DNA of 41,290 bases, from the IMG/VR virus record IMGVR_UViG_3300025769_000267, positions 1-41,290 of that record, one strand, 5' to 3'. Positions 4,698-41,290 of the stretch are shown piece after piece. Numbering within the stretch: position 1 is the first letter of the stretch; each line of letters opens with the position of its first letter. The position numbers and the translations under genes are program-made. The notes under the pieces were generated by a model. It was not told where the DNA came from. It saw only the letters and a program-made list of their open reading frames with translations, and made no database searches. The DNA comes from a virus.

Positions 4698-4705
4698 AAT
4701 AAATA
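4698..4705 (+). promoter_or_regulatory. Candidate late promoter AATAAATA
   Basis: One mismatch to the T4 late consensus TATAAATA. It lies 13 nt downstream of the gp23 terminator and 21 nt before ATG 4727, so it probably restarts transcription for the first appendage gene. The same bases form the left arm of the hairpin that ends at the start codon. Confidence 0.65.
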
Positions 4706-4726
4706 TGTACAAGAGGAGTATTTGTT
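4698..4726 (+). promoter_or_regulatory. Start-codon hairpin overlapping late promoter (locus 1)
   Basis: AATAAATA (4698-4705) can pair with TATTTGTT (4719-4726) over 8 bp with one G:U. The 13-nt loop holds the ribosome site AGAGGAG, and ATG follows directly. It is the weakest of five similar structures because the stem is A:T only. Confidence 0.45.
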
Positions 4727-10925: not shown

Positions 10926-10933
10926 CATAAATA
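10926..10933 (+). promoter_or_regulatory. Candidate late promoter CATAAATA
   Basis: One mismatch to TATAAATA, placed in the 41-nt gap after the second protease and 25 nt before ATG 10959. It would start a new late transcript for the following fibre genes. Confidence 0.6.
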
Positions 10934-10960
10934 GTAGTATTAAGTGTGAGAGACTACTAT
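10931..10960 (+). promoter_or_regulatory. Start-codon hairpin overlapping late promoter (locus 2)
   Basis: Perfect 8-bp inverted repeat ATAGTAGT (10931-10938) and ACTACTAT (10953-10960). The right arm includes the AT of the start codon. The 14-nt loop ATTAAGTGTGAGAG carries only a weak ribosome site (GAG). Arm sequences differ completely from those at 27380 and 38310 while the geometry is kept. Confidence 0.6.
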
Positions 10961-13919
10961 GGCGTTAAACCTAGATCATCAGAGAGATAGAATAAGCACC
11001 GCTAGCGGTAATATTACTATCAGTACCAGCGGTGCTTTGAGAGTTCCTGTTGGCAACACAGCACAGCGACCTCAAAGTGGAGTTGTACAAACTGGTCAAA
11101 TTCGTTTTAATACTCAAACAACACAGTATGAAGGCTACAATGGTGTAAGCTGGACCAGTCTAGGTGGCGTTAAAGATGTAGACCAAGATACATACATCAC
11201 TGCTGAACAAGCATCGGATGATGATACACTACGTTTTTATACTGCTGGTGTACAGCGGTTAACAATCAATAATCTAGGAGAAGTTGAGATTTTCAACGAT
11301 ACTAGTATTACACAAAACTTTCGTGTTGATGGTTTAACTACACTAGACACACTAGACGTAAACAGTCAAGCTACTATTGCAAGTTTAAATGTCGAAGATC
11401 TGGCACAAAATAGTGTGGTATTTGCAGGCCTCAACGGTGAACTTGAAGATGATGTAAACTTCACATACAATGGTAGTGTAATGGAAGTTGATACTAACGG
11501 TGCTATTGGTTTGCCCAGAGGGACACAAGCACAGAGACCAGGCAGTCCTAATCCAGGTTATATTAGATTTAGTACAGATGCTACCAACTTAGAATTTTGG
11601 AATGGCTCTACATGGAATGTTGTTGGTACAGGCTCGGGTGCTGCTAGTGCATTTACTACTATCAGTGTAAACGGACAAAATAATGTTGTGGCTGACGGAC
11701 CTAGTGACACACTAACAATTGTTGGTGGATCAGGAATCAATGTAGTAACAGATGGTGCTACAGATACTATTACTTTTTCAGTACAACAGCTTAGTGCTGG
11801 TACATCGTTGTCTGACACCGACGGTGATACTGGAATAAACTTAGAAACAACACCAGACGAAGACACTATAAGATTTACTACAGATGGCACAGAAAGAATG
11901 GTCATCGATAATACAGGTCTAGTGTCTATACTAGGTACAGGCGCATTAGAAATACCAGCTGGCACCACAGCAGAACGTCCAACTACACTAGCACAAGGAC
12001 AGATCAGATACAATACTACAGATGCTACGTTTGAAGGATACGACGGTGCAGCTTGGGGAAGTTTAGGCGGAGTTAAAGATGTTGACGGTGATACATATAT
12101 CACTGCTGAATTAAATTCAGATGAAGATTATCTTAGATTTTATACAGCCAATTCAGAAAGATTTAACATTGATAATCTGGGTCAGGTAACCTTCGGCGAC
12201 AGTGCTACAAACAACTTTTATACTTTTCCTACACAAAGAGGATCAGATGGTCAAATATTAATAATTGATCAAAGTGGTAATTTAGTATTCAGTGACTTTT
12301 CTACATCCAACACATACTATCAAGACACAGCGCCGGCAGCACCAACTAATACTATTTCAACTGGTGATTTTTGGTTCGACACCGGAACAACAGGCGAATT
12401 ATATATCTATACAGGCAATGAATGGATCAGTACAACACCGGGTGCTGATACTGGATTTATCAAACAAAACTACACAGGTGATGGCAGTACCACACAGTAT
12501 GACACACAAACAGGTGTAAACGGAGGTACAGTAAGTTTAGTATTTTTAAATGGTGTACTTTTACAGCCAATCAATGACTATACAGAAGCAAGCGGTGTCG
12601 TAACTTTTGTTGTTGCTCCTCTATTAGGTGATCAAATTGATATTATGATTACAGGGGAGTTAGTAACACTATCTTTAAATCCATTGGGATTAAACAACCA
12701 TAACTTAATATCAGTGGACGCTGCTGGAGAACTAACTGTCAGCAGTTTAATAGTAAGCGATTTAACTGATAATAGAGTTGTAATTGCAGGTGCAAGTGGT
12801 CAGCTTGAAGATGATGCTAATCTTACATTTGATGGAACTAATTTAGTAATATCAACAACCGGAGCTGTACAAATACCAGTTGGAACTACAGCAGAACGCC
12901 CAACACCAGTTCAAGGTCAGATCAGATACAACACAGATGACAGTACCTTTGAAGGATACAACGGCGCAACATGGGGATCATTGGCTGCTGGTCTTACCAG
13001 TGTTAGTTTAAATATTGCAGGTGACAGTGGAACTGATGCAGTAGACACAAGCGTGGATACACTTACATTTGTAGGCGACACTGGAATTACAACTGCGGTC
13101 ACTAACAATCAAGTGAGTATAGATTTAGACGACACTACTGTAACTCCAGGTGTATACGGTAATGCTACAACTGTTCCTGTTATCACAGTTGATCAACAAG
13201 GCAGAGTTACGTCTGTTACCACAGCCGCAGTAACCAGCACACCTTCAGGTGTTTACACTGTTCATACATTTACAGGCAACGGTGCAGATGATACATTCTC
13301 TACTAGTAATACTAACATAGATGACAATCAAATTTTTATTGACGGATTGTTAGAAGACAGTGCAAACTACACAATTGCACCCAACGGAGATGTTACATTT
13401 AATACTCCTCCTGCAAACAATACTACTATTATTGTGTATGCTTACACCACCAGTATTAATTTGGTAAATTTAGAACAACTGGGCATAGCCAATCACAACA
13501 ATATCAGTGTAGATGTTTCAGGTAATGTTGGATTAGGAACCGCAAGCCCACAAGAAAAATTACACGTAGATGGTGCTATCAGGATTGACGGTGTTAGCTC
13601 ACTGGCTACTGCTAGTACTACACTAGCAACTGTAACACCCACTGCTATAGACACATTTGCTATCACAGCTTTCAGAAGTTGCAAATACACAATACAAGCC
13701 ACCAACACAGTTACCAACGAATATCAAACAGCAGAAGCTATTGTAATTCATGATGGTAGTAGTGCATACATAACAACTTATGGCACAATTTTTACTGGTA
13801 GTGCTAGTATACTAAGTTTGGATGCAGATGTCAACAGCGGAAATGTTAGATTACTAGCAACCGCATCAAGTGCTGATAGCACAGAATACAAAATAACAAG
13901 AATAAGCACATTGGTATAA
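10959..13919 (+). CDS. Modular fibre-like virion protein (986 aa)
   Basis: A long beta-rich appendage protein. Four copies of the GTTAERP-type module (G-A-x-x-x-P-x-G-x-x-A-x-RP ... GQIRYNT ... FEGY-x-G-x-x-WGSL) start near residues 25, 181, 327 and 635; the first and third continue into GGVKDVDxDTYITAE. Two copies of a YTGDGST / FTGNGAD module ending in a hydrophobic strand lie near 504 and 770. The C-terminal 115 residues (RIDGVSSLATASTTLATVTP onward) form a separate domain likely to be the exposed tip. It starts MALNLDHQRDRIS right after the hairpin. No signal peptide or membrane segment is seen. Function as fibre or adhesin is inferred. Confidence 0.72.
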   Translation: MALNLDHQRDRISTASGNITISTSGALRVPVGNTAQRPQSGVVQTGQIRFNTQTTQYEGYNGVSWTSLGGVKDVDQDTYITAEQASDDDTLRFYTAGVQRLTINNLGEVEIFNDTSITQNFRVDGLTTLDTLDVNSQATIASLNVEDLAQNSVVFAGLNGELEDDVNFTYNGSVMEVDTNGAIGLPRGTQAQRPGSPNPGYIRFSTDATNLEFWNGSTWNVVGTGSGAASAFTTISVNGQNNVVADGPSDTLTIVGGSGINVVTDGATDTITFSVQQLSAGTSLSDTDGDTGINLETTPDEDTIRFTTDGTERMVIDNTGLVSILGTGALEIPAGTTAERPTTLAQGQIRYNTTDATFEGYDGAAWGSLGGVKDVDGDTYITAELNSDEDYLRFYTANSERFNIDNLGQVTFGDSATNNFYTFPTQRGSDGQILIIDQSGNLVFSDFSTSNTYYQDTAPAAPTNTISTGDFWFDTGTTGELYIYTGNEWISTTPGADTGFIKQNYTGDGSTTQYDTQTGVNGGTVSLVFLNGVLLQPINDYTEASGVVTFVVAPLLGDQIDIMITGELVTLSLNPLGLNNHNLISVDAAGELTVSSLIVSDLTDNRVVIAGASGQLEDDANLTFDGTNLVISTTGAVQIPVGTTAERPTPVQGQIRYNTDDSTFEGYNGATWGSLAAGLTSVSLNIAGDSGTDAVDTSVDTLTFVGDTGITTAVTNNQVSIDLDDTTVTPGVYGNATTVPVITVDQQGRVTSVTTAAVTSTPSGVYTVHTFTGNGADDTFSTSNTNIDDNQIFIDGLLEDSANYTIAPNGDVTFNTPPANNTTIIVYAYTTSINLVNLEQLGIANHNNISVDVSGNVGLGTASPQEKLHVDGAIRIDGVSSLATASTTLATVTPTAIDTFAITAFRSCKYTIQATNTVTNEYQTAEAIVIHDGSSAYITTYGTIFTGSASILSLDADVNSGNVRLLATASSADSTEYKITRISTLV

Positions 13920-27374: not shown

Positions 27375-27382
27375 TATAAATA
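27375..27382 (+). promoter_or_regulatory. Late promoter, exact TATAAATA
   Basis: Exact match to the T4 late consensus, in the 34-nt gap before ATG 27408. One of two exact matches in intergenic DNA of this window. Confidence 0.8.
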
Positions 27383-27409
27383 TGTGTAAGTAGACTAGGA
27401 TACACATAT
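27380..27409 (+). promoter_or_regulatory. Start-codon hairpin overlapping late promoter (locus 3)
   Basis: Perfect 9-bp inverted repeat ATATGTGTA (27380-27388) and TACACATAT (27401-27409). The loop AGTAGACTAGGA carries the ribosome site AGGA. The right arm includes the AT of ATG 27408. Transcription from TATAAATA should begin about 6 nt past the element, i.e. right after the left arm. Confidence 0.7.
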
Positions 27410-28826
27410 GGCACTGAACTTTCCAAATAATCCCGCAGATGGTGATATCTATCAAGCCTTGGGCAGAGGCTGGAAGTATAACAGCACGGCTGGTATTTGG
27501 GAAGCATTAATCAGAGTCAACACTGCATTTGACAGTGATGATATCACAGAAGGTGCTGTCAATCTCTACCAAAGTCCTGAAAACATAGATGACAGAGTTA
27601 GTCAACTGTTGCAAGCAGGAAACAACATAACTTTAAATTATGATGATTTAGCAAATACCTTGACAATTAGTGGTTTTAGTAGTAATATTTTTAGTATCAC
27701 TGACGGCGTTACAACAGAGCAGATTGACGCAACCAACACTGTTACATTTCTTGGAACTGCAAATGAAGTAGAGGTTGCAGTAAGTGCAACTGATACTGTG
27801 ACTGTTGGACTTCCCAGTGATGTTACAATTGGCAATGATTTAACAGTAACGGGTAATCTTGTCGTTAACGGCACAACAACCACTATAAATAGTACCGAAC
27901 TCAGCGTAGACGACCTTAATATTACTATAGCTAGTGGTGCAGCAGATTCAGTTGCAGCAGATGGTGCAGGAATCACAATTGATGGTGCTAATGCTACACT
28001 AATATATGATAATGCACTGGATGCTTGGCAATTCAATAAACAGCCCTACTTTAATACAGATAGACTGTTAGACACAGCAGATACGCTGGATAGTTTTTCA
28101 GATGTCGACTTTAGTACGCCTCCCACAGACGGACAAACCATAATATGGAATGCAGCACAGAGTAGATTCGAAGCAGGTGAAAGTTTTAGTCAAGCAGAAT
28201 TTGAAACTAGCTTTGATACAAGAATTGCCACAACAAATATCACTGCGCTAGCAGATGTAGAAGCAGGCCCTGCACTGGACGGTGAGATACTGTTTTATTC
28301 AACTGCTAACAGCCAGTTTGAATTTGGATATATTGGTACTGCTAATCTTCAAACAGGATTTTATGTAAACGATACATACACAGGAGATGGTAATACAGTT
28401 GATTATGCACTGTCCCATGACCCAGGAACAGCACAAGCACTGTTAGTTTTAGTAGACAACATTGTGCAAGAACCAGCAATCAACTACACTACTAGTTCAA
28501 CTACACTGACATTTACAGGTGCTCCTGCACTAAATGCTAGAATATACATACGTTATTTGGGATTGCCTGCAAATGTAACAACTGTAGGTGACGGAACAAT
28601 TACAAATGCCAAACTTAGTTTGACATATTCAAGCAATCAGTACACAGGCGATAATACCACAGTTAATTTTACAATTGCCAATGGACACACAGCTGACAGT
28701 GTACTGGTAATATTAGATGGTCTAATATTACCTCCCAGTGATTACACTGTGGCAGGAACAACACTAACATTTGCTGTTGCTCCGTTACAAGATCAAAGTA
28801 TAGATATAAGGTACATGCCAGTATGA
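27408..28826 (+). CDS. Modular fibre-like virion protein (472 aa)
   Basis: The N-terminus MALNFPNNPADGDIYQALGR then WKYNSTAGIWEAL is the FPxNPxDGDxY...YNSTxxxW module frequent in marine phage fibres. Residues about 140-215 carry GNLVVNGTTTTINSTELSVD with GAGITIDGANATLIYDN. A linker with ALADVEAGPALDGEILFYS follows. Two copies of the YTGDG/NxxxVxYxL ... LVxVDxIxxxPxxxYTxxxxTLTFxxAP beta module occupy about 322-385 and 410-472, the second forming the C-terminus. The last 4 nt (ATGA) overlap the next start. Structural role inferred from modules and context. Confidence 0.72.
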   Translation: MALNFPNNPADGDIYQALGRGWKYNSTAGIWEALIRVNTAFDSDDITEGAVNLYQSPENIDDRVSQLLQAGNNITLNYDDLANTLTISGFSSNIFSITDGVTTEQIDATNTVTFLGTANEVEVAVSATDTVTVGLPSDVTIGNDLTVTGNLVVNGTTTTINSTELSVDDLNITIASGAADSVAADGAGITIDGANATLIYDNALDAWQFNKQPYFNTDRLLDTADTLDSFSDVDFSTPPTDGQTIIWNAAQSRFEAGESFSQAEFETSFDTRIATTNITALADVEAGPALDGEILFYSTANSQFEFGYIGTANLQTGFYVNDTYTGDGNTVDYALSHDPGTAQALLVLVDNIVQEPAINYTTSSTTLTFTGAPALNARIYIRYLGLPANVTTVGDGTITNAKLSLTYSSNQYTGDNTTVNFTIANGHTADSVLVILDGLILPPSDYTVAGTTLTFAVAPLQDQSIDIRYMPV

Positions 28827-29299
28827 GTAGAGTAAGAAACAAAGCAGATTTTGCAAGTAGATCAGGCGATTTCGACGGTGATAACACAGATGATGTACAG
28901 TTTGATAATATCACTGTTACAGGAAATATCAATGTAACTGGTACTAGCAGTACTATATTTACTGCTGGTGCAAATATTGAACTTGATGCTGCTAGTAGGG
29001 TATTGGTCAAAGATTCCCCTTTTACACCTGCTAGACTAAGTTCAGCACAACGAGACGCTATTGTAGGAGCATTAGGCGGAGATATAATTTACAACACAAC
29101 CACACAAGTCATGGAAGTTTACCAAAACGGACAATGGGTTAGATTTGATTCTGTGGGTATTGTTTTCCCACAAGGAGATCTTGGAGATTTAACACAAGAT
29201 TTTCAAACTTTGGGATTTGAAATAGGAACTGCTACTAATTTTGATTGTGAAAAAACAATAGTTTTTGCTGCAGAAGACCTAGGACCAGGATTAACATAA
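28823..29299 (+). CDS. Small fibre-like virion protein (158 aa)
   Basis: Starts MSRVRNKADFASRSGDFDGD, with a TVTGNINVTGTSSTIF strand repeat and then P-A-R-L-S-S-A-Q-R-D-A ... GDIIYNTTTQVMEVYQNGQW, a shorter relative of the IRYNT...FEGY module; a similar stretch occurs near residue 570 of the protein at 4727. The C-terminal 40 residues (GDLGDLTQDFQTLGFEIGTA) are not recognised. The ATGA overlap with the upstream gene suggests coupled translation and possibly a physical complex of the two products. Function unknown beyond probable virion part. Confidence 0.65.
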   Translation: MSRVRNKADFASRSGDFDGDNTDDVQFDNITVTGNINVTGTSSTIFTAGANIELDAASRVLVKDSPFTPARLSSAQRDAIVGALGGDIIYNTTTQVMEVYQNGQWVRFDSVGIVFPQGDLGDLTQDFQTLGFEIGTATNFDCEKTIVFAAEDLGPGLT

Positions 29300-29311
29300 T
29301 AGGAAGAAAAA

Positions 29312-30241
29312 ATGCCAACAACATTACAACTAAGAAGAGGATCAACTACACAACACAATACTTTTGTTGGTGCTGCGGGTGAAATCACTGTAGATACAGA
29401 CAAAAATACAATTGTTGTGCATGATGGTGCTACAGCAGGTGGCTTTCCTGTGTTTCATACAGGAGCTAATGCCACACTAAACAATTTAATAGTATCGGGA
29501 AATTTAACAGTTCAAGGTACTACAACCACACTGAATAATGCCAACACACAAACTGTAGACCTCGGAGACAATGATAAAATTCGTCTTGGAGACAACAATG
29601 AATTACAGATGTATCACACAGGTATAGGTGGTGCAGCTTTTGTTGACAATACAGAAGGCGTACTAACACTAAGACCCAACGGACAATTTACAGTAAGTAA
29701 CTATACCACTGCTGAAACTTATATTACTGCCGCTGCTAATAGTGGAGTTCAACTTTTTTATGATGGTAGTACCAAACTCACTACCAACAACACTGGTATT
29801 GATATAGCAGGTACTGCAACAACAGATGGTCTTACCGTAGATGGTACAAGTTATTTTTCTGAAATTATTGAAAATGGCACCTTGAATGCTACCACCAGCG
29901 GAACAATAGACATTGATCTCAGAGACGGTGCATTGTGGTACTTAAACACAGCACAAACAGCCAACAGAACTATTAATTTCAGAGCAACTTCAAGTGAAAC
30001 ATTAGACAGTATACTAAACAACATTGATAGTATCACTGCCGCTATAATTTTAACCAATGGTGCTACACCTTATTATTTCAACACAATTCAAGTAGACGGG
30101 TCTACTATTACTCCAAAATATCAAGGTGGAGTCAATATTACCAGTGGTAATGCTAACAGTTTAGATGTTTATTCATTTACAATACTCAAAACAGGCAGCG
30201 GTACATTTGAAGTATTGATGGGTATGACACAATTTGCCTAA
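29312..30241 (+). CDS. Fibre/adhesin with major-tropism-determinant-type N-terminal domain (309 aa)
   Basis: The first ~50 residues (PTTLQLRRGSTTQHNTFVGA, then AGEITVDTDKNTIVVHDGAT) match the Mtd N-terminal/phage tail-repeat domain (LQLRRGT...GE-x-x-x-DTDxxxxxVHDG), which in Bordetella phage helps anchor a receptor-binding protein. Residues 60-105 hold the GNLTVQGTTTTLNNANTQ strand module with two DNDKIRLGDNNELQMYHTG phrases. The last ~115 residues (NGTLNATTSGTIDIDLRDGA to VLMGMTQFA) are the tip-type domain shared with the genes at 15010 and 21297. It has AGGAAG before ATG. Receptor-binding role is inferred; no reverse transcriptase or template repeat is present, so there is no evidence of DGR-driven variation. 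Confidence 0.75.
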   Translation: MPTTLQLRRGSTTQHNTFVGAAGEITVDTDKNTIVVHDGATAGGFPVFHTGANATLNNLIVSGNLTVQGTTTTLNNANTQTVDLGDNDKIRLGDNNELQMYHTGIGGAAFVDNTEGVLTLRPNGQFTVSNYTTAETYITAAANSGVQLFYDGSTKLTTNNTGIDIAGTATTDGLTVDGTSYFSEIIENGTLNATTSGTIDIDLRDGALWYLNTAQTANRTINFRATSSETLDSILNNIDSITAAIILTNGATPYYFNTIQVDGSTITPKYQGGVNITSGNANSLDVYSFTILKTGSGTFEVLMGMTQFA

Positions 30242-30253
30242 TAGGATTTAAAA

Positions 30254-30460
30254 ATGTACGAAGTATGGGTAGAAGATCCAGGCAACAACGAACTTTTTTC
30301 AGGACCTGATTACGGAACAAGTCTACACACTGAAAACACATATGAACAGTGTGAACAATGGATTACAGACAACTTTCCTGATTATGATGAAACACTTAAT
30401 CCAACTCCTTTGTATGTAGAATACTTCACTTGTACTTGGTTGATTAGGGAAGTGACATAA
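30254..30460 (+). CDS. Small acidic hypothetical protein (68 aa)
   Basis: Begins MYEVWVEDPGNNELFSGPDY and ends TWLIREVT. It is acidic and aromatic-rich with two Cys (in EQCEQW and FTCTW) and no membrane segment. It starts 12 nt after the preceding stop with AGGAT upstream, and its stop overlaps the next ATG (TAATG). I do not recognise a family. Its tight position between an Mtd-type fibre gene and a glycine-rich adhesin suggests a chaperone or connector of those appendages, which is only context. Confidence 0.6.
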   Translation: MYEVWVEDPGNNELFSGPDYGTSLHTENTYEQCEQWITDNFPDYDETLNPTPLYVEYFTCTWLIREVT

Positions 30461-31338
30461 TGCCATTTGTTACTACTATAGCTGCTCAATCGGTTCTTGG
30501 CTTGGGAAGAAAAGAAAGGTACACTAAATCTATACCTTTTACTTTTTTGTCTACAAGTTCACTAGGAACCATTGATTTGAGTTGGCGTAAGGTTATTCCA
30601 GGGCTAACTGTAGGTTATTTTTTAATGGGCGGTGGCGGCAGCGGAAGTGCTAGTCATTACCAAGGCGGCGGCGCAGGCAATTTTCAATATGGTACGTTTA
30701 CTACATCAGGCGGACTTGATACAATTACAATAACAGCCGCAGGTAGAAGTCAAATTCTTCAAAATCCTACCAATATCAATCTTCAAGGAGTTGCTGGAGA
30801 ATCTAGTAGCATAGTTGCTCCTGAAAGTAGTATTAATATAACAGCAACAGGTGGTGAAAGAGGGAATATAAACGCTGCTGAAGCTGCTGGCAGTAGTGGT
30901 GGGGGCGGCGCTGGCAATAGCGGCTTTGGCGGTGTTGGCGGTAGCGGGGGATCAAATGGGTCCAATGGTAATACCTATGTTGGAGGTACAGGCATAGGCA
31001 CCACTAATTGGAATACTGCAACAAGCTGGCTTACAACTAAAATTCAAACCTATTCATTGAATGCCAGTGCTAGTATAAGTGCAGGAGCAGGAGGTAATCC
31101 TACTACAAATAGTAATTGTGGCGGAGGCGGAGCCGGTGGATTGGTTTTTGCTGATGTTGCTGAAATTTCTACAACACCCAGCGGTTTGGTAGCTCCTAGA
31201 ACCGACGTTGCTACACAAGGAACAAGTGCAGTAGGTTGGGGAGCTGGTGGCACCAGTGGAGGGTACAATGTCACTTATGGCCGAGGTACTGCCACAGGTC
31301 AAGGTGCACAAGGGTTTGCCATGATATGGACCGAATAA
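30460..31338 (+). CDS. Glycine-rich adhesin-like protein (292 aa)
   Basis: After MPFVTTIAAQSVLGLGRKER and a beta stretch, glycine-rich blocks appear at about residues 51-75 (GGGGSGSASHYQGGGAGNFQ), 145-175 (GGGGAGNSGFGGVGGSGGSN), 221-228 and 263-290. They alternate with short variable strands and end GQGAQGFAMIWTE. Alternating poly-Gly runs and variable loops recall the polyglycine sandwich of the T2/S16 gp38 tip adhesins, and the ending resembles the final strand of glycine-rich phage and bacterial surface proteins. There is no gp38 assembly domain that I can identify, so homology is not claimed. Start codon overlaps the preceding stop. Likely host-contact tip (inference). Confidence 0.65.
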   Translation: MPFVTTIAAQSVLGLGRKERYTKSIPFTFLSTSSLGTIDLSWRKVIPGLTVGYFLMGGGGSGSASHYQGGGAGNFQYGTFTTSGGLDTITITAAGRSQILQNPTNINLQGVAGESSSIVAPESSINITATGGERGNINAAEAAGSSGGGGAGNSGFGGVGGSGGSNGSNGNTYVGGTGIGTTNWNTATSWLTTKIQTYSLNASASISAGAGGNPTTNSNCGGGGAGGLVFADVAEISTTPSGLVAPRTDVATQGTSAVGWGAGGTSGGYNVTYGRGTATGQGAQGFAMIWTE

Positions 31339-31341
31339 ATA
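31334..31341 (+). promoter_or_regulatory. Candidate late promoter AATAAATA
   Basis: One mismatch to TATAAATA, overlapping the stop codon of the glycine-rich gene and 20 nt before ATG 31362. Ribosome site AAAGGA follows. No clear start-codon hairpin is present here. Confidence 0.5.
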
Positions 31342-31361
31342 TTTTTAAAGGAATAGAATAA

Positions 31362-32168
31362 ATGCCATTTTTAACAACAAATGCAAATAGAGCATTCGGA
31401 TTGTTTCCACAAATATATTCTTCTGTGGCAGAACTTGTACAACGTTTGCCAGAACGTGATGCAACGTCTTCGTTGAGTGGCACTATATCTGCTAATTCGG
31501 TAGTGAATCTGGTTGGAATTTCATTGAACAACGATTTAAAATATACCACTATTGAAGACCCTGTTGATGGCACTAGATTTAATGCTATCGGGATAGCCAG
31601 TTATACAGGCAGTGCCTCTAATAATTATAACAGTAGAGATAGTACTACAGGACATAATGCATCATCAATGCAAGTACCTAATGCCAACAGCACATATTCC
31701 GCCAACGAAGCATGGATAGGAACAGATGATGCTCAAACACTGATATATAATAATTACCAAATCTTAAGATGTTGTATGGCAGTTATTGGACCTCAGTGTG
31801 AAAATTATTTTATGAGACCAGTGGGACAAGGACCTTTGAATGTTTGGTCACCACTGACAACAAATGAAGGTACTAACTGGTCACAAAACAACACTGCTCC
31901 TAGAATCAAAGATGCTGTTGATGGTACAAATTTCAGTACTAATAAGTCTAACGGGCCATGGGGAAGTGGTCATTATGGACCTTGGTGCTGGAATACCGGT
32001 CGATCTGCTCCAACACAAAGTCATCTTTTAAAAAATAGCATCATGGGCAATGCAGTATCCGCAAGCGCAGATCCAATATATATATTTGAAAGAAGCAGTG
32101 ATAACGACCCTTATCCACCACAAGACTCGTTATATACCTTTATTTTTTGGCCAGACTATCCCGTATAA
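31362..32168 (+). CDS. Virion-associated hypothetical protein (268 aa)
   Basis: Begins MPFLTTNANRAFGLFPQIYS, sharing the MPF(L/V)xT opening with the proteins at 17431 and 30460, which suggests a common N-terminal attachment peptide. The rest (AELVQRLPERDATSSLSGTI, DPVDGTRFNAIGIASYTGSA, GPWGSGHYGPWCWNTGRSAP, ending YTFIFWPDYPV) has many aromatics and Ser/Thr/Asn but no module that I recognise. The aromatic C-terminal half could form a carbohydrate-binding face. It is closed off by an exact late promoter immediately downstream. Role as an adhesin is inferred from place and opening only. Confidence 0.6.
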   Translation: MPFLTTNANRAFGLFPQIYSSVAELVQRLPERDATSSLSGTISANSVVNLVGISLNNDLKYTTIEDPVDGTRFNAIGIASYTGSASNNYNSRDSTTGHNASSMQVPNANSTYSANEAWIGTDDAQTLIYNNYQILRCCMAVIGPQCENYFMRPVGQGPLNVWSPLTTNEGTNWSQNNTAPRIKDAVDGTNFSTNKSNGPWGSGHYGPWCWNTGRSAPTQSHLLKNSIMGNAVSASADPIYIFERSSDNDPYPPQDSLYTFIFWPDYPV

Positions 32169-32171
32169 ATA
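32164..32171 (+). promoter_or_regulatory. Late promoter, exact TATAAATA
   Basis: Exact match to the T4 late consensus. It overlaps the stop codon of the 31362 gene and lies 28 nt before ATG 32200. Confidence 0.8.
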
Positions 32172-32198
32172 TATATAACTAGAATAAGGTTATTATAT
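32171..32198 (+). promoter_or_regulatory. Start-codon hairpin overlapping late promoter (locus 4)
   Basis: ATATATAAC (32171-32179) can pair with GTTATTATAT (32189-32198) as 9 bp with one bulged T. The loop TAGAATAAG contributes to the ribosome site AAGG. ATG 32200 follows after one base. The stem is A:T-rich, so the fold is weaker than at locus 3. Confidence 0.5.
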
Positions 32199-32199
32199 T

Positions 32200-32655
32200 A
32201 TGGCAGTTGCACAAATTATTCAAAGAGCTATAGCAGTTGATAGCGTTGGTCCAGATCAACTAGCACCAGGTGCTATAACCGCTGCAGATATTCCCAACGG
32301 AGAAATTACAGCAGATAAACTAGCGTCAACTTTAGATCTGAGTGCAAAAACACTAACTATTACACAAGACAGTGTTACTGCTCACCAGAGTGCTTTGAGC
32401 CTTGCTGAATCTCAGGTTAGTGGTTTAAATTTAGATACTATTTTAACAAGAGGCAATACCAGTACACAAAGTTTAACTGTTAACCAAGTTATTGCCACAG
32501 GAAGTGGTGCAAACAACTTGTCTGGTACTACTACTTTAGGCGGTGATGTAACCGTTAACGGTACAATTGCTGCAACAGGTAGTATAACTGCTGATAATGG
32601 ATCACCTTTGATGACACAAACCAAAACGATAGCCCTATCGATAGCTTTAGGATAA
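32200..32655 (+). CDS. Small fibre-like virion protein (151 aa)
   Basis: Begins MAVAQIIQRAIAVDSVGPDQ and continues with the ITAADIPNGEITADKLASTL motif (xxDIxxGxItxdKLA), common near the base of phage tail-fibre shafts. GNTSTQSLTVNQVIATGSGA and TTLGGDVTVNGTIAATGSIT follow as shaft-like strands. It ends TIALSIALG, like the 13923 protein. It is the first gene after an exact late promoter and lies 12 nt before the giant structural gene, so both are probably one late transcript. Confidence 0.68.
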   Translation: MAVAQIIQRAIAVDSVGPDQLAPGAITAADIPNGEITADKLASTLDLSAKTLTITQDSVTAHQSALSLAESQVSGLNLDTILTRGNTSTQSLTVNQVIATGSGANNLSGTTTLGGDVTVNGTIAATGSITADNGSPLMTQTKTIALSIALG

Positions 32656-32667
32656 TAGGAAAACATA

Positions 32668-35600
32668 ATGGGTAAAAAACTTTTTGTAGGCAGATATACA
32701 TTTGATGCTTCAGCTAACAGTGTTACAGTAAACGACAATATTGCAGCTGAACGCTTGCTGATTATTACTGATGTTACAAACAACAAAATCATTTATAACT
32801 TTGCTGAACCAACACTTGGCTTTGCTAGCAGAACTTATGATGCGACAACTAAAAAAACTACTTTTATACTAACCGCAGACTGTGTAGCATTGGGATGCAC
32901 AGACACAGACAGCTTACAAATTTTTATTGAAAAAGAAGCACAAGAAGTTGTATTCAGTGATGCTTATTTGGATCCTGTTAGTAAGATACGTGTGAGCAAT
33001 CCTGAAAACTTGATCGACACTGACTTTGAATATGGACTACAAAGTACAAAGTGGGAAACACTAGAACTTACCAATAATATTCCTACTTTCTTTAGTAGAG
33101 ACGGTGATTTTGATATTCCTATTAGTACAATACAAGTTTCAGCTAACAGTGATATTGTAACAGTTACTACAAGTTCTCCTCATGGATTGCAAAGAGGATC
33201 ACCTATTATTATGCAGTCAACATCAGAAGTCAGTGCTGATGGTGGATTCATCGTTGCAGGTGTTATTGATACAACCAGTTTTAATTTTAAAGCTAAAAGT
33301 ATTTTTACAGTTACAGATGATATCAAAGAAACATACACACAATTGTTTGCAGCTAAAATCTATACAGGTACTGAATTTAAACTCAGCCAAATTGGAGGTA
33401 TTACAACTGATGGCGGTAACCCGAGTACCATCACAGTAAACACGGTTAACCCTACTAATTTTACCAATGGAACTAGTATGGCTATGAGTAATACATTTGC
33501 TAAGTCAACTGTTAATTTTAATACAGATGATGTTGAAGTAGACAATACTGATGTAATAGATATATCTTATACCAGCGCAACAGCTACGGGAGAAACAGGC
33601 GGTTTTAATCTAGGAGGTGTAGCAAGTGTAGAATTTACACCAGAAGACAATACTGTATTTTTTGAAGAAGGTGTTGAATACACTATTGATCTCACCAATG
33701 ATACTATTACTTTTAGTGAGCCGCACGGATTTACAAATGTTAGTGCTGACTATGCAATTCCTTGTACATATTTTTGTGACACTACAACAAACACACCAAT
33801 TGGTGGTTTGACCGCAAACAGAACCTATTGGATATATCGAATTGACGATTATACAGTTTCACTGCACTACTATTTCAGCACTAGCAGCGGAGTAAACTAC
33901 AAAGTAAATCTAACAAGTCCGGGTGTTAGTGGAGGAATTACTAGAAGTTGTTTTACTAGATCTCTTTGGGTTTATTATACTGATGGCAGATACACTTACG
34001 CTGACAGATTTAACACCACTTGGTTAACTGGTAACAACATAAACACTGAATTTGGTAGTGTAAGAAACAGAGGTTTGTACACACAACTAACAAACAGCGC
34101 AGGCACGGGTTTTACCGACGGATACGGAAAAAATGAAGTAAATGATATACATTTGGGAAATAATCTAAATTATGATTATTGGGCTTTAAGGTACAGCACA
34201 AACGACAGTTATCGAGCTAGGATATACTATGATAATACCAGCAGTAGTTATGTTAGTACATACTATAGTAGTAGCAGTGATGCAGGCTGGACAAATATCA
34301 GAGATGAAGTTCAGAGAAGCAGTTTGTGGGTACCCAATCATGGATTAACATCTGCACAAGATGGTCAGTTGATTACTGTTACTGCTACGACTGGAACATT
34401 GCCAGCAGGGTTATCCAGTGGAAGTTCCTACAAAGTAGTTGTTGTTGACAGCAATAGACTGGCTTTTGATACTACAGCAGGTTCTGCTGTCTCTTTTACC
34501 AACTCAGGTTCTACCAATCTAACCTATCGTATACAATCAACTGCAAGCAAACCCACTGCTAATACTATTAGCATACCTGGCAATACACTGCAAGAAGGAG
34601 ATGCTGTTGAATTAGATGTGGGCGCAGGAACTCCCATTGGTGGACTAGTAGACGGAACAACATACTACGTTGCACTAAAAAATGATGGAAGATTTTCACT
34701 TTCTACTAGTGCTACTATATACGGAGTATCAGATTTCATACTCAATCAGGCCAGTAGTACCTATGTGAACTTGTCAACTAATACTGTTAACATAGGGGGC
34801 AGTACTTTTTCCAATGGCGATGCTGTGGTGTATACAGCAGGTACACCTGTGGTTGGATTAAAATCAGGCGTAGTATATTGGGTAAGAGAACTTACCACAA
34901 ACAACTATGGTTTTTATCATAGTCAAGCCGATGCTCTTGCTAACACAAATCAAATTGATTTCTTTGCATATGGCAGTGGTGCTGGATCTATGGTTAAAAT
35001 TGATATTATTGATTTTACAAGCAAGCCAGGTACTAACGAATCTCATACTTTCTTAGCTGACTTTGTTGGAGCAGCAGATGGATTGTACACAGTTGCAAGC
35101 ACTGCATCAGATCAGTTGAGCTTTACATTTAACGCAGGCAATCAAATTGAAGCTAGAACAAAAACAATTGTAGCCCAAGAATCTTTTGTAGATGCATTTG
35201 ACGCACTCAAAGTTGATAATCACGGATTTATTACAGGAGACAGCATAGCACTTACACTAAATGGAACCACCAACATAAGCGGTTTAAGCAACGGAACGTA
35301 TTATGTAATTAGAGTAAACAAAGATTTTATTAGACTGGCACTAACACAAAATGATGCTATCAACAATCAATATGTGCTTTTGACCGAAACTGGAACAAGT
35401 GCAAGTAGACTTACAGGAACCATCAGCCTACAGCCAACTACTATCGTTGGTAGTTTCAATGGCTCAGGTACAATAAGTTTTACAGCAGACAGTACTTACA
35501 TAGATGGAGAAAGCACCAGTTTTACCAGTTACTTTAGTAAAGGTGATACATTTTTTATCAATAATCCAGAAACTGTCACCAGTACAGAAATAACCACAGT

Positions 35601-38301
35601 TAATACCACAACTGATGTTTTCACTGCAACTGCTCACACACTGGTAGATGGTGATTTAGTAACACTGTCAGGTACCGCAGCACCCACTGGATTAAACTAT
35701 TCAGATTTATATTATGCCAAAGCTGTAACAGTTGACACATTTAGTTTACACTACACAAGAGCAGACGCTGTAGCAGGATCAAACATTATTCAACTCACAG
35801 ACATTGGTACAAGCACAAGTGTTAATAGGGTGCAAGATGCTGGCAGTATCATTGAGCGTGAAATTGACTACGTAAACGGTGACACAAAAATTCAATTTAC
35901 CACAGCATTGCCTTCAACTGCACTAACAAATGTTAACTATTTGCAAAACACTAGTTTGTTACTAAGACCAGATGGTTTTGCACTGCACAGACCATACGAT
36001 GGTGGTGTTGATCTTATTCCGAGTACTAACCCAGACAGTACAATGATACGCCAAACACGCAAATATTTCCGTTACCAGTCTGGTAAAGGTATTCAAGTAT
36101 CATTTGCTGTTAACTTTAGTCCTACCAGTCAAATGGACACATTCACTAGAAGTGGAAATATAGGAACAATTACTACTAGATTTCCTCATAGACTGAGCGA
36201 AGGATTAGAAATTGTAACCAGTGGCAGTACCAATACCAGTAATGACACATTTGGAACTATTAACTACGATGTTTCAGTAGCACCAGATCAACAAGGACAA
36301 AACAAATTTCAAGTTGATGGTGAAGAATTATCTACACTAACACTGTACGAAGGCAGAACCTATAGATTCAACCAAGAAGATGCAACTAATGCTACTCATC
36401 CTCTGAGATTTAGTGAAACACAAGACGGCACACATTCAGCAGGCAGCGAATACACCGTTAATGTTACCACAGCTGGAACTCCAGGTAATCCAGGAGCATA
36501 CACACAAATCACCATAGCTAGTGGTGCTCCTGAGTTGTATACTTATTGTTCTACTCACCCGGGTTTGGGATTTGTTGTTACTACACCTGTTGACCCAACT
36601 AACAATCAAGGAAACTTGTGGAACGGAACACTGACTGTACTGAGTGTAATTGATGATTTTAGATTTACAGTACAGTTAGATGGCACACCTAGTGATACTC
36701 AAGCAAAAGGTGTTGTAGAATATTATGTTAAGAATTGGGAAAACAGTGATCTTAGATGTGGTTTGTACGATGATCAAAATGGTATTTTCTTTGAATATAA
36801 TGGTCAAAATTTAGAAGTTTGTCGAAGAAGTAGTATCAAACAGTTGAGTGGGTATGGAAACTTAACCTTTAGATCTAGTTTGGTAACAGGTATTTCTACT
36901 AAATTTACAAGTCAGTTATCAGTGGGTGATTACATTGTTATCAAAGGTCAAAGCTATAAAGTAAGTAGAATTGACAGTGATACTCAATTGTATATTATAC
37001 CGGGTTACAGAGGTGTGAGTTTAGAAAAAGCTGTTATTACCAAAACAGAAACAACAAAAATACCGCAAGAAAATTGGAATTTAGATCCTTGCGACGGTAC
37101 AGGATACAGCGGATTTATACTAGATATTCACAAAATACAAATGGCGTATATTGATTACAGTTGGTATGGCGCAGGTAAAGTTCGTTTTGGATTTAAAGAT
37201 CAACATGGTAATGTTAAGTATGTGCATGAATTCATTCATGGTAACGAATTTACAGAAGCATACATGCGTAGTGGTAACGTTCCTGCACGTTATGAAATAC
37301 AAAACAATGGGACTCCTACATATGTTCCTGCACTGGCACACTGGGGTACAAGTGTTATCATGGACGGTAAGTTTGATCCAGATAAAGCATATATCTTTAA
37401 TGCAAACAGTAAAAACTTGACACTTACTGGTGTGAGTCAGTTGACAGCTAGTGCAAAAGTTGATTACACTGGAATTTATTATCAGAGAAGAGGCAACTAC
37501 TATTATGCAATTGGTTATGCTCTAGAGCTAGATTCAGCTGACAGTACACTTAACCAGGTAACAGCAGGCACAGAAGTTACAGGTGCTGATTTAGCTGCAA
37601 ATACTAAAGCTAGAAATCCTATTAGCGGTTCAATTAGTCCTTATCAGCCTTATCTTCCTAGTATTAGCAGTAGACAAGGAACCAGTTATTTCACTCAGGC
37701 AAACAGAAACCTGTTGGTTATAGATCAACAACCGTTATCTACTAACTCGTCAAGCACATATGCAATTGGTGCTGCAACAGGTGGTGAGGTTAACGTTACT
37801 AAAGATATACCTTTGATTAGTATTAGACTTGCTCCTAGTGTGGATACAAGTGCTCCTGGATTTTTAGGAGAAAGAGAAATTATCAATAGAATGCAATTGA
37901 TTCTAACAAAGGTTAATGTGCTGAGTACACATGCTGCTACAGTTCAACTTATCTTGAATGGACAATTGAGTTCAAATGCATGGGAGCGTGTTACACCTCC
38001 AAGTTTGAGTCAGTTGCTACTGCACGAAAACGTTGATACTATTACAGGCGGATTAAGTGTGTACAACTTTGAGGCACAAGGTGGTACTGGTACTAGCGGA
38101 CGTACACCTGTGTTGACCACAGAAGACTTGGGTGATATTGCTACACTAGGTAACAGTATACTAGGCGGTGATAATGTTTTCCCAGATGGCCCAGATGTGC
38201 TTACACTGGTTGCAACACTTAGCGAAGATCCAAGTACTGTTACAGGAAGCAATCCATTTACAGTGTCAGGACGTTTTGGTTGGACAGAATCACAGGCTTA
38301 A
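32668..38301 (+). CDS. Giant virion structural protein (1877 aa) with embedded cupredoxin-like segment
   Basis: The N-terminus (MGKKLFVGRYTFDASANSVT) is followed by several ~50-residue beta modules. They have the pattern (H/N)-G-(L/F)-x-x-G-D-x-(V/I) ... G-L-x-x-G-x-x-Y-x-V ... D-x-F-x-L, with His at 172, 353, 558, 852 and 990, plus His-less copies near 635 and 710. At about 1205-1305 a different domain interrupts one such module. It contains ATHPLRFS (His1244) and LYTYCSTHPGLG (Cys1294, His1297, Leu1300), the ligand spacing of a type 1 copper protein of amicyanin type, but with Leu in place of the axial Met. The last ~450 residues (GFILDIHKIQMAYIDYSWYG to GRFGWTESQA) look like a large conserved structural domain of marine T4-like phages. 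Probably a baseplate or long-fibre component (inference). AGGAAA precedes the ATG. Confidence 0.78.
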   Translation: MGKKLFVGRYTFDASANSVTVNDNIAAERLLIITDVTNNKIIYNFAEPTLGFASRTYDATTKKTTFILTADCVALGCTDTDSLQIFIEKEAQEVVFSDAYLDPVSKIRVSNPENLIDTDFEYGLQSTKWETLELTNNIPTFFSRDGDFDIPISTIQVSANSDIVTVTTSSPHGLQRGSPIIMQSTSEVSADGGFIVAGVIDTTSFNFKAKSIFTVTDDIKETYTQLFAAKIYTGTEFKLSQIGGITTDGGNPSTITVNTVNPTNFTNGTSMAMSNTFAKSTVNFNTDDVEVDNTDVIDISYTSATATGETGGFNLGGVASVEFTPEDNTVFFEEGVEYTIDLTNDTITFSEPHGFTNVSADYAIPCTYFCDTTTNTPIGGLTANRTYWIYRIDDYTVSLHYYFSTSSGVNYKVNLTSPGVSGGITRSCFTRSLWVYYTDGRYTYADRFNTTWLTGNNINTEFGSVRNRGLYTQLTNSAGTGFTDGYGKNEVNDIHLGNNLNYDYWALRYSTNDSYRARIYYDNTSSSYVSTYYSSSSDAGWTNIRDEVQRSSLWVPNHGLTSAQDGQLITVTATTGTLPAGLSSGSSYKVVVVDSNRLAFDTTAGSAVSFTNSGSTNLTYRIQSTASKPTANTISIPGNTLQEGDAVELDVGAGTPIGGLVDGTTYYVALKNDGRFSLSTSATIYGVSDFILNQASSTYVNLSTNTVNIGGSTFSNGDAVVYTAGTPVVGLKSGVVYWVRELTTNNYGFYHSQADALANTNQIDFFAYGSGAGSMVKIDIIDFTSKPGTNESHTFLADFVGAADGLYTVASTASDQLSFTFNAGNQIEARTKTIVAQESFVDAFDALKVDNHGFITGDSIALTLNGTTNISGLSNGTYYVIRVNKDFIRLALTQNDAINNQYVLLTETGTSASRLTGTISLQPTTIVGSFNGSGTISFTADSTYIDGESTSFTSYFSKGDTFFINNPETVTSTEITTVNTTTDVFTATAHTLVDGDLVTLSGTAAPTGLNYSDLYYAKAVTVDTFSLHYTRADAVAGSNIIQLTDIGTSTSVNRVQDAGSIIEREIDYVNGDTKIQFTTALPSTALTNVNYLQNTSLLLRPDGFALHRPYDGGVDLIPSTNPDSTMIRQTRKYFRYQSGKGIQVSFAVNFSPTSQMDTFTRSGNIGTITTRFPHRLSEGLEIVTSGSTNTSNDTFGTINYDVSVAPDQQGQNKFQVDGEELSTLTLYEGRTYRFNQEDATNATHPLRFSETQDGTHSAGSEYTVNVTTAGTPGNPGAYTQITIASGAPELYTYCSTHPGLGFVVTTPVDPTNNQGNLWNGTLTVLSVIDDFRFTVQLDGTPSDTQAKGVVEYYVKNWENSDLRCGLYDDQNGIFFEYNGQNLEVCRRSSIKQLSGYGNLTFRSSLVTGISTKFTSQLSVGDYIVIKGQSYKVSRIDSDTQLYIIPGYRGVSLEKAVITKTETTKIPQENWNLDPCDGTGYSGFILDIHKIQMAYIDYSWYGAGKVRFGFKDQHGNVKYVHEFIHGNEFTEAYMRSGNVPARYEIQNNGTPTYVPALAHWGTSVIMDGKFDPDKAYIFNANSKNLTLTGVSQLTASAKVDYTGIYYQRRGNYYYAIGYALELDSADSTLNQVTAGTEVTGADLAANTKARNPISGSISPYQPYLPSISSRQGTSYFTQANRNLLVIDQQPLSTNSSSTYAIGAATGGEVNVTKDIPLISIRLAPSVDTSAPGFLGEREIINRMQLILTKVNVLSTHAATVQLILNGQLSSNAWERVTPPSLSQLLLHENVDTITGGLSVYNFEAQGGTGTSGRTPVLTTEDLGDIATLGNSILGGDNVFPDGPDVLTLVATLSEDPSTVTGSNPFTVSGRFGWTESQA

Positions 38302-38304
38302 TTC

Positions 38305-38312
38305 GATAAATA
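38305..38312 (+). promoter_or_regulatory. Candidate late promoter GATAAATA
   Basis: One mismatch to TATAAATA, 3 nt after the giant gene's stop codon and 29 nt before ATG 38342. Confidence 0.65.
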
Positions 38313-38340
38313 TGTGTAGCAGACACTAGGAAACACATAT
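38310..38340 (+). promoter_or_regulatory. Start-codon hairpin overlapping late promoter (locus 5)
   Basis: Perfect 8-bp inverted repeat ATATGTGT (38310-38317) and ACACATAT (38333-38340), with loop AGCAGACACTAGGAA holding AGGA. ATG 38342 follows after one base. The loop resembles that at 27389-27400 (both contain AGAC and CTAGGA), so loci 3 and 5 may be copies of one leader. Confidence 0.65.
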
Positions 38341-38341
38341 C

Positions 38342-41290
38342 ATGCCAGTGAGTAAAAATTTCGAATTAGCAAATCTAGCAAGTGGATTAGATGTAGATCA
38401 ATCCACTGGCGAAGTATTAACGATAAATTTAGATACAGATGTTGTCACTGAAGGATCCGCAAATGTATACTATACAGATGCCAGGGTAGCAGCATTTCTT
38501 TCAGGAGGGACATTTACTGGTGGGATCAAATTAGGTGACAATGAAAAAATACAGTTTGGAGATACAACTACTCCAGACTTAGAAATATACCACGATACTA
38601 ATAATTCAATAATTGCAGACACAGGCACAGGTAATCTAGTGCTTGACTCTGAAACAGTTGTTGTTCAAAGCACAGGCGCATTGGTTGTTCCTGTGGGTAC
38701 AACTCTCCAACAGCCTACTACATTACTACAAGGTATGGTTCGTTACAACACAGACGACAGTACCTTTGAAGGCTATGACGGTGCAGCATGGGGCAGTTTA
38801 GGTGGTGTTAAAGATGTTGATCAAGACACTTATATCGAAGCAGAAGAAGGTGCAGATGACGATACCTTGAGATTTTATACCGCCGGTGATATAGCACTTA
38901 CAATTGACAATATACAAAATGCTAAATTTGAAAGTACAGGTGCAGTTAGAGTGCCGGTAGGTTCTGAAGCTGACAAAACATCATTTACAGCAGAACAAGG
39001 ACAAATACGCTACAACACCACGGATAGCACGTTTGAAGGCTATGATGGATCTGCGTGGGGCAGTTTGGGTGGTGTCAAAGACGTTGACCAAGATACTAAA
39101 ATTGAAGCAGAAAGTAGTGCTGGTGCAGATAACGATGAACTAGATTTTTATACTGCTGGTACACAGCGTATGCAAATTGGTGCAACTGGTGATTTAGGAT
39201 TCGGAGACGGCTTAACCAAGTTTACAGTAGCATTTACCTCTGGTGATACAAATATTGCTGGTACACTAGATGTATCGGGTGCAGTAAATCTAAATAACAC
39301 AACTGGATCTACAAGTGCTACAACTGGAGCACTCGTGATAGATGGCGGCACAGGCATTGCAGAAAACTTATATGTTGGAGGCAATATTGATGTAACTGGA
39401 GATTTAACAGTTAATGGAACTACAACAACTGTAAACAGTACAGTGGTCACAGTAGATGATCCGATTTTTACACTGGGCGGTGATACTGCTCCTACAACAG
39501 ATGACAACAAAGATCGTGGTATCGAATTTAATTGGCATGATGGCATTACAGCAAAAGTAGGTTTCTTTGGCTTTGATGACTCTGAAGGTAAATTTACATT
39601 TATTCCTGATGCAACAAATACTTCAGAAGTGTTTAGTGGTACAGCAGGAACTATTGTAGCTGATGTTGAAGGAGACTTAAATGGTGATCTAGTAAAAGCT
39701 GTCACAACTGCAAATGACATTTATCCTTCAAGTGCCAATCAATACTTGGGTGATACATCTAATAGATGGGCTGCTCTTTATGTTGGGGACATTGTTGCGA
39801 CAGGTGCAGGTAAAACTGCTTATTTTCAAAATGTAGAAACTTTTGGAACACTAGACGTAACTGGTAAGATTACTGCGACAGGTGGATTAGATGCTCCTAA
39901 TAACATAGCACTTACAAATAGTGGTTTTTCACATACTCTTTCAACAGATACATTATCGTCAAATACCTTAACGGTTTTTGACGCAAGTGGTGGTTATGTG
40001 GCATATACAGACGTTACACAAACCCTTTCTAATAAAACACTAGATGCTCCTATTATTAGTGACCACATTATTTTTGAAGGTGCGACTGCTGATGCATTTG
40101 AAACTACACTTGCTGTCACTGATCCAACAGCAGATAGAACTATTACTTTTCAAGATGCCAGTGGCACTGTAGCATTATTGAGTGATATTAGTGGTGGCGG
40201 CAGTGCTAGTTTCAGCACAATTAACTTGACAGGTGATATTGTATTTGAGGGAGCAACAGCAGACGACTTCGAAACAACACTCACAGTAACTGATCCCACA
40301 GCAGATAGAACTATCACACTACCCGACGCAACTGGCACAGTTGCAGTAAGTGTAACAGATACCACAACAACTACACAGGGCGATTTAAATCTAGACTTCA
40401 CTTTAAGTACAGCTGGTAATGTAAGTGCAACAGGTGATGCATATGGACTAGCAACAAGTGATAGTCCGACATTCGCTGGACTAACAATTAACGGATCAAG
40501 TTTAGTATTTGAAGGAGCAACAGCAGATGACTTCGAAACAACACTAACTGTAACTGATCCCACAGCAGATAGAACTATCACACTACCTGATGCAACTGGT
40601 ACAGTGCTTACCACTGGAAATTTAACTGAAATAACCAATTTGGGCGTACTGACAGGTGATATTGTATTTGAGGGAGCAACAGCGGATGATTTTGAAACAA
40701 CACTAACAGTTGTAGACCCGACTGCTGACAGAACAGTTACATTACCTGATGCCAGTGGCACTGTGCCTCTTTTATCAGTCAATGGACTTACCAGCAATGT
40801 GGTTCTTACTGATTTTGATGAAACATCAATTAATGGTGTTGATATAAATCCTTCAATTGCTCTGGCAAACTCCCACCGTTGGACAATCAACTCTGGTACT
40901 TTTCAAGTGATTTCACAATACACACCAGGGATCTCAGGCTTCACAGATCCTCTTTGGGGTAATATTATTTTAAATGGTAATGTATATTTAGGCGGCGGCA
41001 CAGGTTTTAACAACTTTGCGTATCTTCACTTCAATGGTCCTATCAAAACTGATTTGGTATTTGAAGGAGCAACTGCTGATGGTAATGAAACAACACTTAC
41101 ATTAACCGATCCAACAGCAGCTAGAACAATCACACTACCAGATGCAACAGGTACTGTAATTACCACTGGGAACTTAACTGAAATAACCAATTTAGGTGTA
41201 CTAACAGGTGATATTGTATTTGAAGGAGCAACAGCGGATGATTTCGAAACAACACTCACAGTAACTGATCCAACAGCAGATAGAACTATC
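38342..41290 (+). CDS. Modular tail-fibre-like protein, 3' truncated by window edge (983+ aa)
   Basis: Begins MPVSKNFELANLASGLDVDQ and stays open for 983 codons to the edge. Residues about 32-60 contain VVTEGSANVYYTDARVAAFL, a known fibre-shaft phrase. Two GTTxxxP / EGYDGAAWGSLGGVKDVDQD modules lie near 115 and 200. A DLTVNGTTTTVNSTVVTVDD module near 355 is followed by GIEFNWHDGITAKVGFFGFD, typical of marine phage fibres. NIALTNSGFSHTLSTDTLSS and TLSNKTLDAPII come next. From about 577 to the edge there are six FEGATAD...TLPDATGTV modules. No stop or frameshift is seen. It is preceded by a late-type promoter and hairpin. Fibre role inferred. Confidence 0.78.
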   Translation, partial: MPVSKNFELANLASGLDVDQSTGEVLTINLDTDVVTEGSANVYYTDARVAAFLSGGTFTGGIKLGDNEKIQFGDTTTPDLEIYHDTNNSIIADTGTGNLVLDSETVVVQSTGALVVPVGTTLQQPTTLLQGMVRYNTDDSTFEGYDGAAWGSLGGVKDVDQDTYIEAEEGADDDTLRFYTAGDIALTIDNIQNAKFESTGAVRVPVGSEADKTSFTAEQGQIRYNTTDSTFEGYDGSAWGSLGGVKDVDQDTKIEAESSAGADNDELDFYTAGTQRMQIGATGDLGFGDGLTKFTVAFTSGDTNIAGTLDVSGAVNLNNTTGSTSATTGALVIDGGTGIAENLYVGGNIDVTGDLTVNGTTTTVNSTVVTVDDPIFTLGGDTAPTTDDNKDRGIEFNWHDGITAKVGFFGFDDSEGKFTFIPDATNTSEVFSGTAGTIVADVEGDLNGDLVKAVTTANDIYPSSANQYLGDTSNRWAALYVGDIVATGAGKTAYFQNVETFGTLDVTGKITATGGLDAPNNIALTNSGFSHTLSTDTLSSNTLTVFDASGGYVAYTDVTQTLSNKTLDAPIISDHIIFEGATADAFETTLAVTDPTADRTITFQDASGTVALLSDISGGGSASFSTINLTGDIVFEGATADDFETTLTVTDPTADRTITLPDATGTVAVSVTDTTTTTQGDLNLDFTLSTAGNVSATGDAYGLATSDSPTFAGLTINGSSLVFEGATADDFETTLTVTDPTADRTITLPDATGTVLTTGNLTEITNLGVLTGDIVFEGATADDFETTLTVVDPTADRTVTLPDASGTVPLLSVNGLTSNVVLTDFDETSINGVDINPSIALANSHRWTINSGTFQVISQYTPGISGFTDPLWGNIILNGNVYLGGGTGFNNFAYLHFNGPIKTDLVFEGATADGNETTLTLTDPTAARTITLPDATGTVITTGNLTEITNLGVLTGDIVFEGATADDFETTLTVTDPTADRTI
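40070..41290 (+). repeat. Array of six ~100-bp FEGATADDFETTLTV-TLPDATGTV repeats
   Basis: Copies begin near 40070, 40241, 40505, 40664, 41057 and 41216 (the last cut by the edge). DNA identity between copies is high. A longer shared block joins the end of one copy to the start of the next: 40604-40693 and 41155-41245 are near-identical and encode TTGNLTEITNLGVLTGDIVF. Related copies lie in other genes at about 4834, 6979, 15163, 16138, 16531, 16882, 22777, 22961 and 23485. These give the phage many sites for homologous recombination between fibre genes. Confidence 0.9.

Follow-up and report, generated by a model that had tools for sequence, protein, structure and literature searches.

Genes and late promoters of the window

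The window, meaning the whole stretch of DNA analysed here (IMG/VR record IMGVR_UViG_3300025769_000267, positions 1-41,290), is a 41.3-kb fragment of a marine T4-like myovirus. The same phage is present at 99.9% identity in two other contigs (G025/IMGVR_UViG_3300019765_000012 and L002), and by its capsid the phage is closest, among cultured ones, to jumbo T4-like phages such as PA5oct (68.5%) and GAP32/121Q (about 66%). Since megablast gave no match to close cultured relatives of the window, homologues were drawn from IMG/VR; a search of the window against Rfam 15 gave no match to a curated RNA family. As shown in Table 1, downstream of the gene for a gp23-type major head protein lies a cluster of large, co-directional genes of structural and fibre type. 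A T4-type late box (NATAAATA), which is the published cyanophage late promoter (PMC2984593), lies directly 5' of a gene at 10926, 27375, 32164 and 38305. Seven NATAAATA boxes in the window precede a start codon; the earlier note had spoken of eight loci, and the number of usable promoters is seven.

Table 1. Late promoters, hairpin arms and associated genes in the window (WC, Watson-Crick).
Feature	Coordinates	Strand	Remarks
gp23-type major head protein	3474-4634		phrog_138
Reported fifth hairpin, promoter AATAAATA against TATTTGTT	4698..4726	+	judged not significant
Late promoter box CATAAATA	10926..10933	+	predicted +1 = 10939 (A)
Left arm ATAGTAGT	10931..10938	+	8 WC bp, p=0.003
Right arm ACTACTAT	10953..10960	+	end inside ATG (10959)
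Gene behind 10926 hairpin, virion structural/baseplate-fibre type (DHQ family)	10959..13919	+	phrog_6005 virion structural protein, E 6.5e-72
Late promoter box TATAAATA, T4-type	27375..27382	+	predicted +1 = 27388 (A)
Left arm ATATGTGTA, strongest hairpin	27380..27388	+	overlaps promoter box; 9 WC bp, p=0.0003
Right arm TACACATAT	27401..27409	+	end = T of ATG (27408-27410)
Gene behind 27375 hairpin, tail-fibre/structural type	27408..28826	+	phrog_18673 tail fiber protein, E 6.7e-13
Late promoter box TATAAATA	32164..32171	+	overlaps upstream gene's stop; predicted +1 = 32177 (A)
Left arm ATATATAAC, moderate hairpin	32171..32179	+	bulged
Right arm GTTATTATAT	32189..32198	+	one bulged base; ends 1 nt before ATG (32200)
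Late promoter box GATAAATA	38305..38312	+	predicted +1 = 38318 (A)
Left arm ATATGTGT	38310..38317	+	8 WC bp, p=0.0003
Right arm ACACATAT	38333..38340	+	ends 1 nt before ATG (38342)
Gene behind 38305 hairpin, virion structural/tail-fibre type	38342..41290	+	phrog_6005, E 7.9e-56; runs off window

Start-codon hairpins in the window

Five hairpins joining a late promoter to a start codon had been reported in the earlier note. All five inverted repeats can be read in the DNA, but they are not equal in strength: those at 10926-10961, 27375-27410 and 38305-38344 have 8-9 contiguous WC bp (p about 0.003-0.0003), that at 32164-32202 is moderate, and that at 4698-4729 fails, so that hairpins are real at three, and probably at four, of the five reported loci. 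The p values were obtained by shuffling the spacer while the promoter box and ATG were kept fixed; pooled by Fisher's method over the seven start-codon late promoters, they give p=2.4e-6, or 3e-4 when 38305 is left out as a copy. Such shuffling, which had been proposed as a check on the chance rate, bears directly on the explanation that AT-rich leaders between TATAAATA and TATG readily give short palindromes from which the fitting ones were picked. Pairing between the ATA of the box and the TAT of TATG comes for free in every such leader, and chance fully explains 4698 (p 0.33) and partly 32164 (p 0.15), but it is contradicted at the three strong loci, each with p<=0.003.

The hairpin at 32164 has 6 contiguous WC bp and becomes longer with a 1-nt bulge; its stem reaches p=0.15 and its energy switch p=0.06, and the homologue search for the 32200 gene found none. 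At 4698, in front of the gene at 4727, 4 contiguous WC bp (9 with G-U) yield a dG of -2.6 kcal/mol with p=0.33/0.45 in spacer shuffles; the stem is weakened to -1.1 kcal/mol in L168, a relative with 98% identity, and is absent from four further relatives (L003-L006). The locus is ruled out as a hairpin by its energy, its p value and its relatives. A strong intrinsic terminator (AAAACAGGCTC/GAGCCTGTTTT), kept in many relatives, follows gp23 at 4657-4682, directly upstream of 4698, which is the only promoter of the window with a terminator upstream and is also one without a convincing hairpin. No hairpin is present at the remaining two promoters, 31334 and 21261, the latter with a GTG start.

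The leaders at 27375 and 38305 are, by their sequence, copies of one cassette of promoter, hairpin and RBS: their similarity beyond the promoter scores 15.5 against a shuffle maximum of 6.5, with the arms and loop common to both. The earlier count of five independent loci is reduced to about three, as these two leaders are copies and 4698 fails. The cassette precedes two unlike fibre genes. No comparable late-promoter hairpin leader was found among N-terminal homologues of the 27408 gene. For the 38342 gene, whose matches mostly fall outside its N-terminal region, the search gave no homologue with a late-promoter leader.

In the family of the 10959 gene, hairpins with other arms occur in homologues L021/L464, L455, L273 and L419. 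Four unrelated arm pairs (window, L455/L464, L273 and L419) are found there among many leaders without a hairpin; most homologues lack it, including one that is 78% identical, and selection in this family would therefore be weak or lineage-specific. The hairpin appears here to be a facultative device that was gained repeatedly. The same fibre-gene family has a conserved TGTGAGAG element 5' of the ATG (window 10940-10952; homologues L418-L451), which is perhaps an unusual ribosome-binding sequence.

Late-promoter leaders in related phages

Related viral contigs supplied 290 loci with a total of 4.1 Mb for the survey, and clustering on leader plus coding sequence left 255 non-redundant leaders. 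As a positive control, T4 was scanned in the same way, which returned e, 49 and segB; the segB leader lies at about 71,948 of the T4 record (L377), in agreement with the literature. In the arm-swap control, the left half of one leader was joined to the right half of another. Run on a smaller set of 60 over-clustered leaders, the swap test had been weak. In the non-redundant set, at least 8 WC pairs in the promoter-to-ATG geometry were found in 9/255 leaders, compared with a mean of 0.5 (at most 4) in arm-swaps and 0.4 in shuffles, which is about 18 times the arm-swap rate. When the untranscribed -13..-1 segment alone was swapped in 264 leaders, the number of strong switches (ddG>=6, dG<=-7) fell from 14 to 2.15, with a maximum of 6. 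Among 49 stems of at least 7 WC bp that start in the box, the right arm ends on the T of ATG in 16 and within -3..+1 in 25, while the left arm begins mostly at box position 6. Control heptamers of the same composition gave no excess, and four without late-box overlap showed no stem of at least 8 WC pairs; TAAAATA gave a single, terminator-like match. AAATATA was disregarded as a control heptamer, being contaminated by TATAAATATA late boxes.

Swap controls still give about 1.6 stems of at least 7 bp per 255 leaders, in favour of chance; the excess of longer stems in relatives, together with the pooled window value and the compensatory changes in the MSRPK family described below, speaks against chance, which is already contradicted for the strong loci and is a rather improbable account of the whole. 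The window phage itself is an outlier, with 3/7 promoters strong as against roughly 2-4% elsewhere. Without the window and the MSRPK family, the contiguous-WC excess is small (about 3 stems of at least 8 bp vs 0.5), and therefore the wider excess rests more on the energy-based swap test. G-U vs A-C mismatches across the whole non-redundant set (11:15, against 9:15 in swaps) are uninformative outside MSRPK. A terminator lies upstream of 1/32 hairpin leaders vs 28/197 others (p=0.09) and a co-directional gene upstream of 22/26 vs 267/386 (p=0.12), neither difference being significant.

Two further arrangements were seen in the related contigs. An endolysin gene (phrog_894; L181:7511-7972) stands behind a late-promoter hairpin and recalls T4 gene e. 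Face-to-face late boxes (ATAAATA...TATTTAT) occur 5' of genes in L015, L023, L038, L067, L069 and L070; both predicted starts lie between the boxes, and the 5' leaders of the two transcripts would therefore be complementary.

Compensatory change in the MSRPK family

The MSRPK family, a gene of ~95 aa that is absent from the window, has the hairpin in 69/80 IMG/VR relatives (L292-L371); further loci of the gene are L194:8877-9167, L235:15304-15591 and L183:10527-10811. Its protein has no PHROG or Pfam match, and the homologues in PA5oct, Phosso, Atu_ph07 and SCTP-2 are without the hairpin. Because the MAFFT leader alignment misplaced the arms, pairs were counted on leaders anchored at promoter and ATG. 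Among 58 distinct leaders, the central pair is A-T in 17 and G-C in 35, T-A and C-G being rarer, and wholly different arms are present in L316, L235 and L327/L344. The gene tree requires a minimum of 8 parsimony changes at the left base, with few branches well supported; the supported branches alone give two independent compensatory pairs. Compensatory change is found in this family, whereas among the window genes there are sporadic different-arm hairpins in the 10959 family, and 27408, 32200 and 38342 have no informative homologues.

Mismatches in the MSRPK stems are G-U in 20 cases and A-C in 0; this tolerance of G-U and absence of A-C (20:0) suggests pairing in RNA rather than a DNA site. 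The inverted repeat might otherwise be read as an operator for a dimeric DNA-binding regulator, in the way that I-TevI represses its own late promoter; the repeat does overlap the promoter, and I-TevI is a precedent for late-promoter occlusion (PMC2988022). The arms, however, differ freely between loci and homologues and thus offer no common half-site, and the position of the right arm follows the ATG, not a set distance from the promoter, which, with the mismatch pattern, makes an operator very improbable. The earlier view that pairing rather than sequence is kept is supported by the swap controls, the clustering of right arms on the ATG and the compensatory changes in a homologous gene family.

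Proposed mechanism

It is likely that the window hairpins are start-codon hairpins embedded in late promoters, of the type known from T4 e, 49 and segB. The left arm comes from the last bases of the box and a few bases after it that are predicted to be untranscribed; the right arm is formed by the bases just before the ATG and by part of the ATG, and the loop carries Shine-Dalgarno-like bases. T4 late boxes span -13 to -6, and -13/-12 are named for the first two bases (PMC2988020). RNA polymerase with the late sigma factor (gp55 type) would initiate about 6 nt past the box; the predicted +1 is based on the spacing in T4 and on the preference for A at this position. The position given earlier for the left arm, at or before +1, is plausible, as A occupies the site 6 nt past the box in 7/7 window promoters and in 62% of 255 promoters from relatives. 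Local late mRNA would then lack most of the left arm at 32164 and all or nearly all of it at the other three loci, and its start codon would be open; RNA entering from an upstream promoter would have both arms, fold, and be poorly translated.

Predicted accessibility follows this scheme. The cost of opening -14..+6 is 10.7 kcal/mol on read-through RNA vs 2.2 kcal/mol on late RNA at 27375, and the corresponding opening costs are 7.1 vs 4.8 at 38305, 7.5 vs 3.3 at 10926 and 12.0 vs 4.6 kcal/mol at 32164. By prediction, masking of the RBS and start codon is lost from the late +1 at the four good loci, the cost falling by 2.3-8.5 kcal/mol; at 4698 and 21261 it drops by <=0.5 kcal/mol or rises. In the MSRPK leaders, the median goes from 10.4 to 3.9 kcal/mol, with a drop of more than 1 in 73/76. 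The swap controls and these calculations agree with the earlier proposal that the left arm lies in untranscribed promoter and that the ATG would be masked on read-through RNA.

Stems at the 5' end are a known means of mRNA stabilisation, and a 5'-terminal stem could in principle serve the stability of the late mRNA itself. Most of the left arm, however, which begins 6-8 nt before the predicted +1, would be untranscribed, and the folding energies of the truncated leaders reach only -0.7 to -3.5 kcal/mol; such a role is hardly probable.

At the four good loci (10926, 27375, 32164 and 38305), the upstream genes are co-directional, without a terminator, and their stops lie 2-13 nt before the left arms; read-through is therefore expected. 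The closeness of these stops would also suit translational coupling, where the hairpin shuts the start codon unless the ribosome ending the upstream gene melts the stem, so that output is tied to upstream translation. However, the stop of the preceding gene is equally near in T4 e and 49 (nudE, pin), and read-through e RNA made early is nevertheless repressed about 100-fold (PMC3014915); the median distance from stop to promoter is no shorter in hairpin leaders (13 nt) than in others (8 nt), which makes coupling unlikely. With late-promoter-embedded hairpins, at least three, and probably four, structural/fibre genes of one late cluster would depend on their own late promoter and not on read-through.

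The output of each gene, in the terms of the earlier note, may be set by promoter choice, and the purpose could be timing, with early or middle read-through RNA kept silent, or gene-by-gene dosage. Dosage within the late phase is conceivable because the window genes are structural. A more specific possibility, put forward tentatively, is that the hairpin provides translational insulation within a late operon: fibre and structural genes would be uncoupled from read-through occurring at the same time, the stoichiometry of parts would be set promoter by promoter, and the device would have spread by copying of the leader cassette (27375 to 38305 or the reverse).

Comparison with known systems

The late-promoter hairpin mechanism has been described for T4 e, soc, 49, I-TevI and segB (PMC3014915, PMC2988022). 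The T4 precedent invoked in the earlier note is confirmed in this literature for e, soc and 49. In T4 e (lysozyme) and 49 (endonuclease VII), as in the window, the left arm starts inside a TATAAATA-type box, the right arm ends at the ATG, the RBS lies in the loop or an arm, and the upstream stop is a few nt away. The T4 stems are stronger (about -13 kcal/mol, compared with a modest -6 to -8 kcal/mol in the window) and their products are harmful if made early, whereas in the window several leaders of one phage precede structural/fibre-type genes in a late cluster. T4 soc is likewise a structural gene with a late-promoter-linked hairpin (PMC3014915), but its left arm lies further downstream (CATGTAATT, around +1) and the local transcript keeps more of the arm. 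I-TevI, I-TevII, I-TevIII, segB and Aeh1 mobE resemble the window in having the late promoter inside the left arm and a silenced read-through RNA (PMC2988022); these hairpins belong to mobile endonucleases in early or middle transcripts, while those of the window belong to virion genes. The MSRPK leaders of marine T4-like phages have the same geometry and arms that co-vary, but they precede a different gene and the hairpin is conserved across most of that family.

It can be seen that the mechanism is known from T4, while its deployment on several fibre-type genes within a single late cluster is new; the recurrence in marine T4-like phages and the strong conservation in one family are more interesting than the window itself. 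So far, the promoter-embedded hairpins of T4 have been regarded as a few special cases. The present results suggest a recurrence of this logic among uncultured marine T4-like phages, with different arms on fibre genes. As the device can be detected from sequence alone with a swap control, late-gene wiring becomes readable in uncultivable phages, and the choice between timing and dosage as its role can be put to the test.
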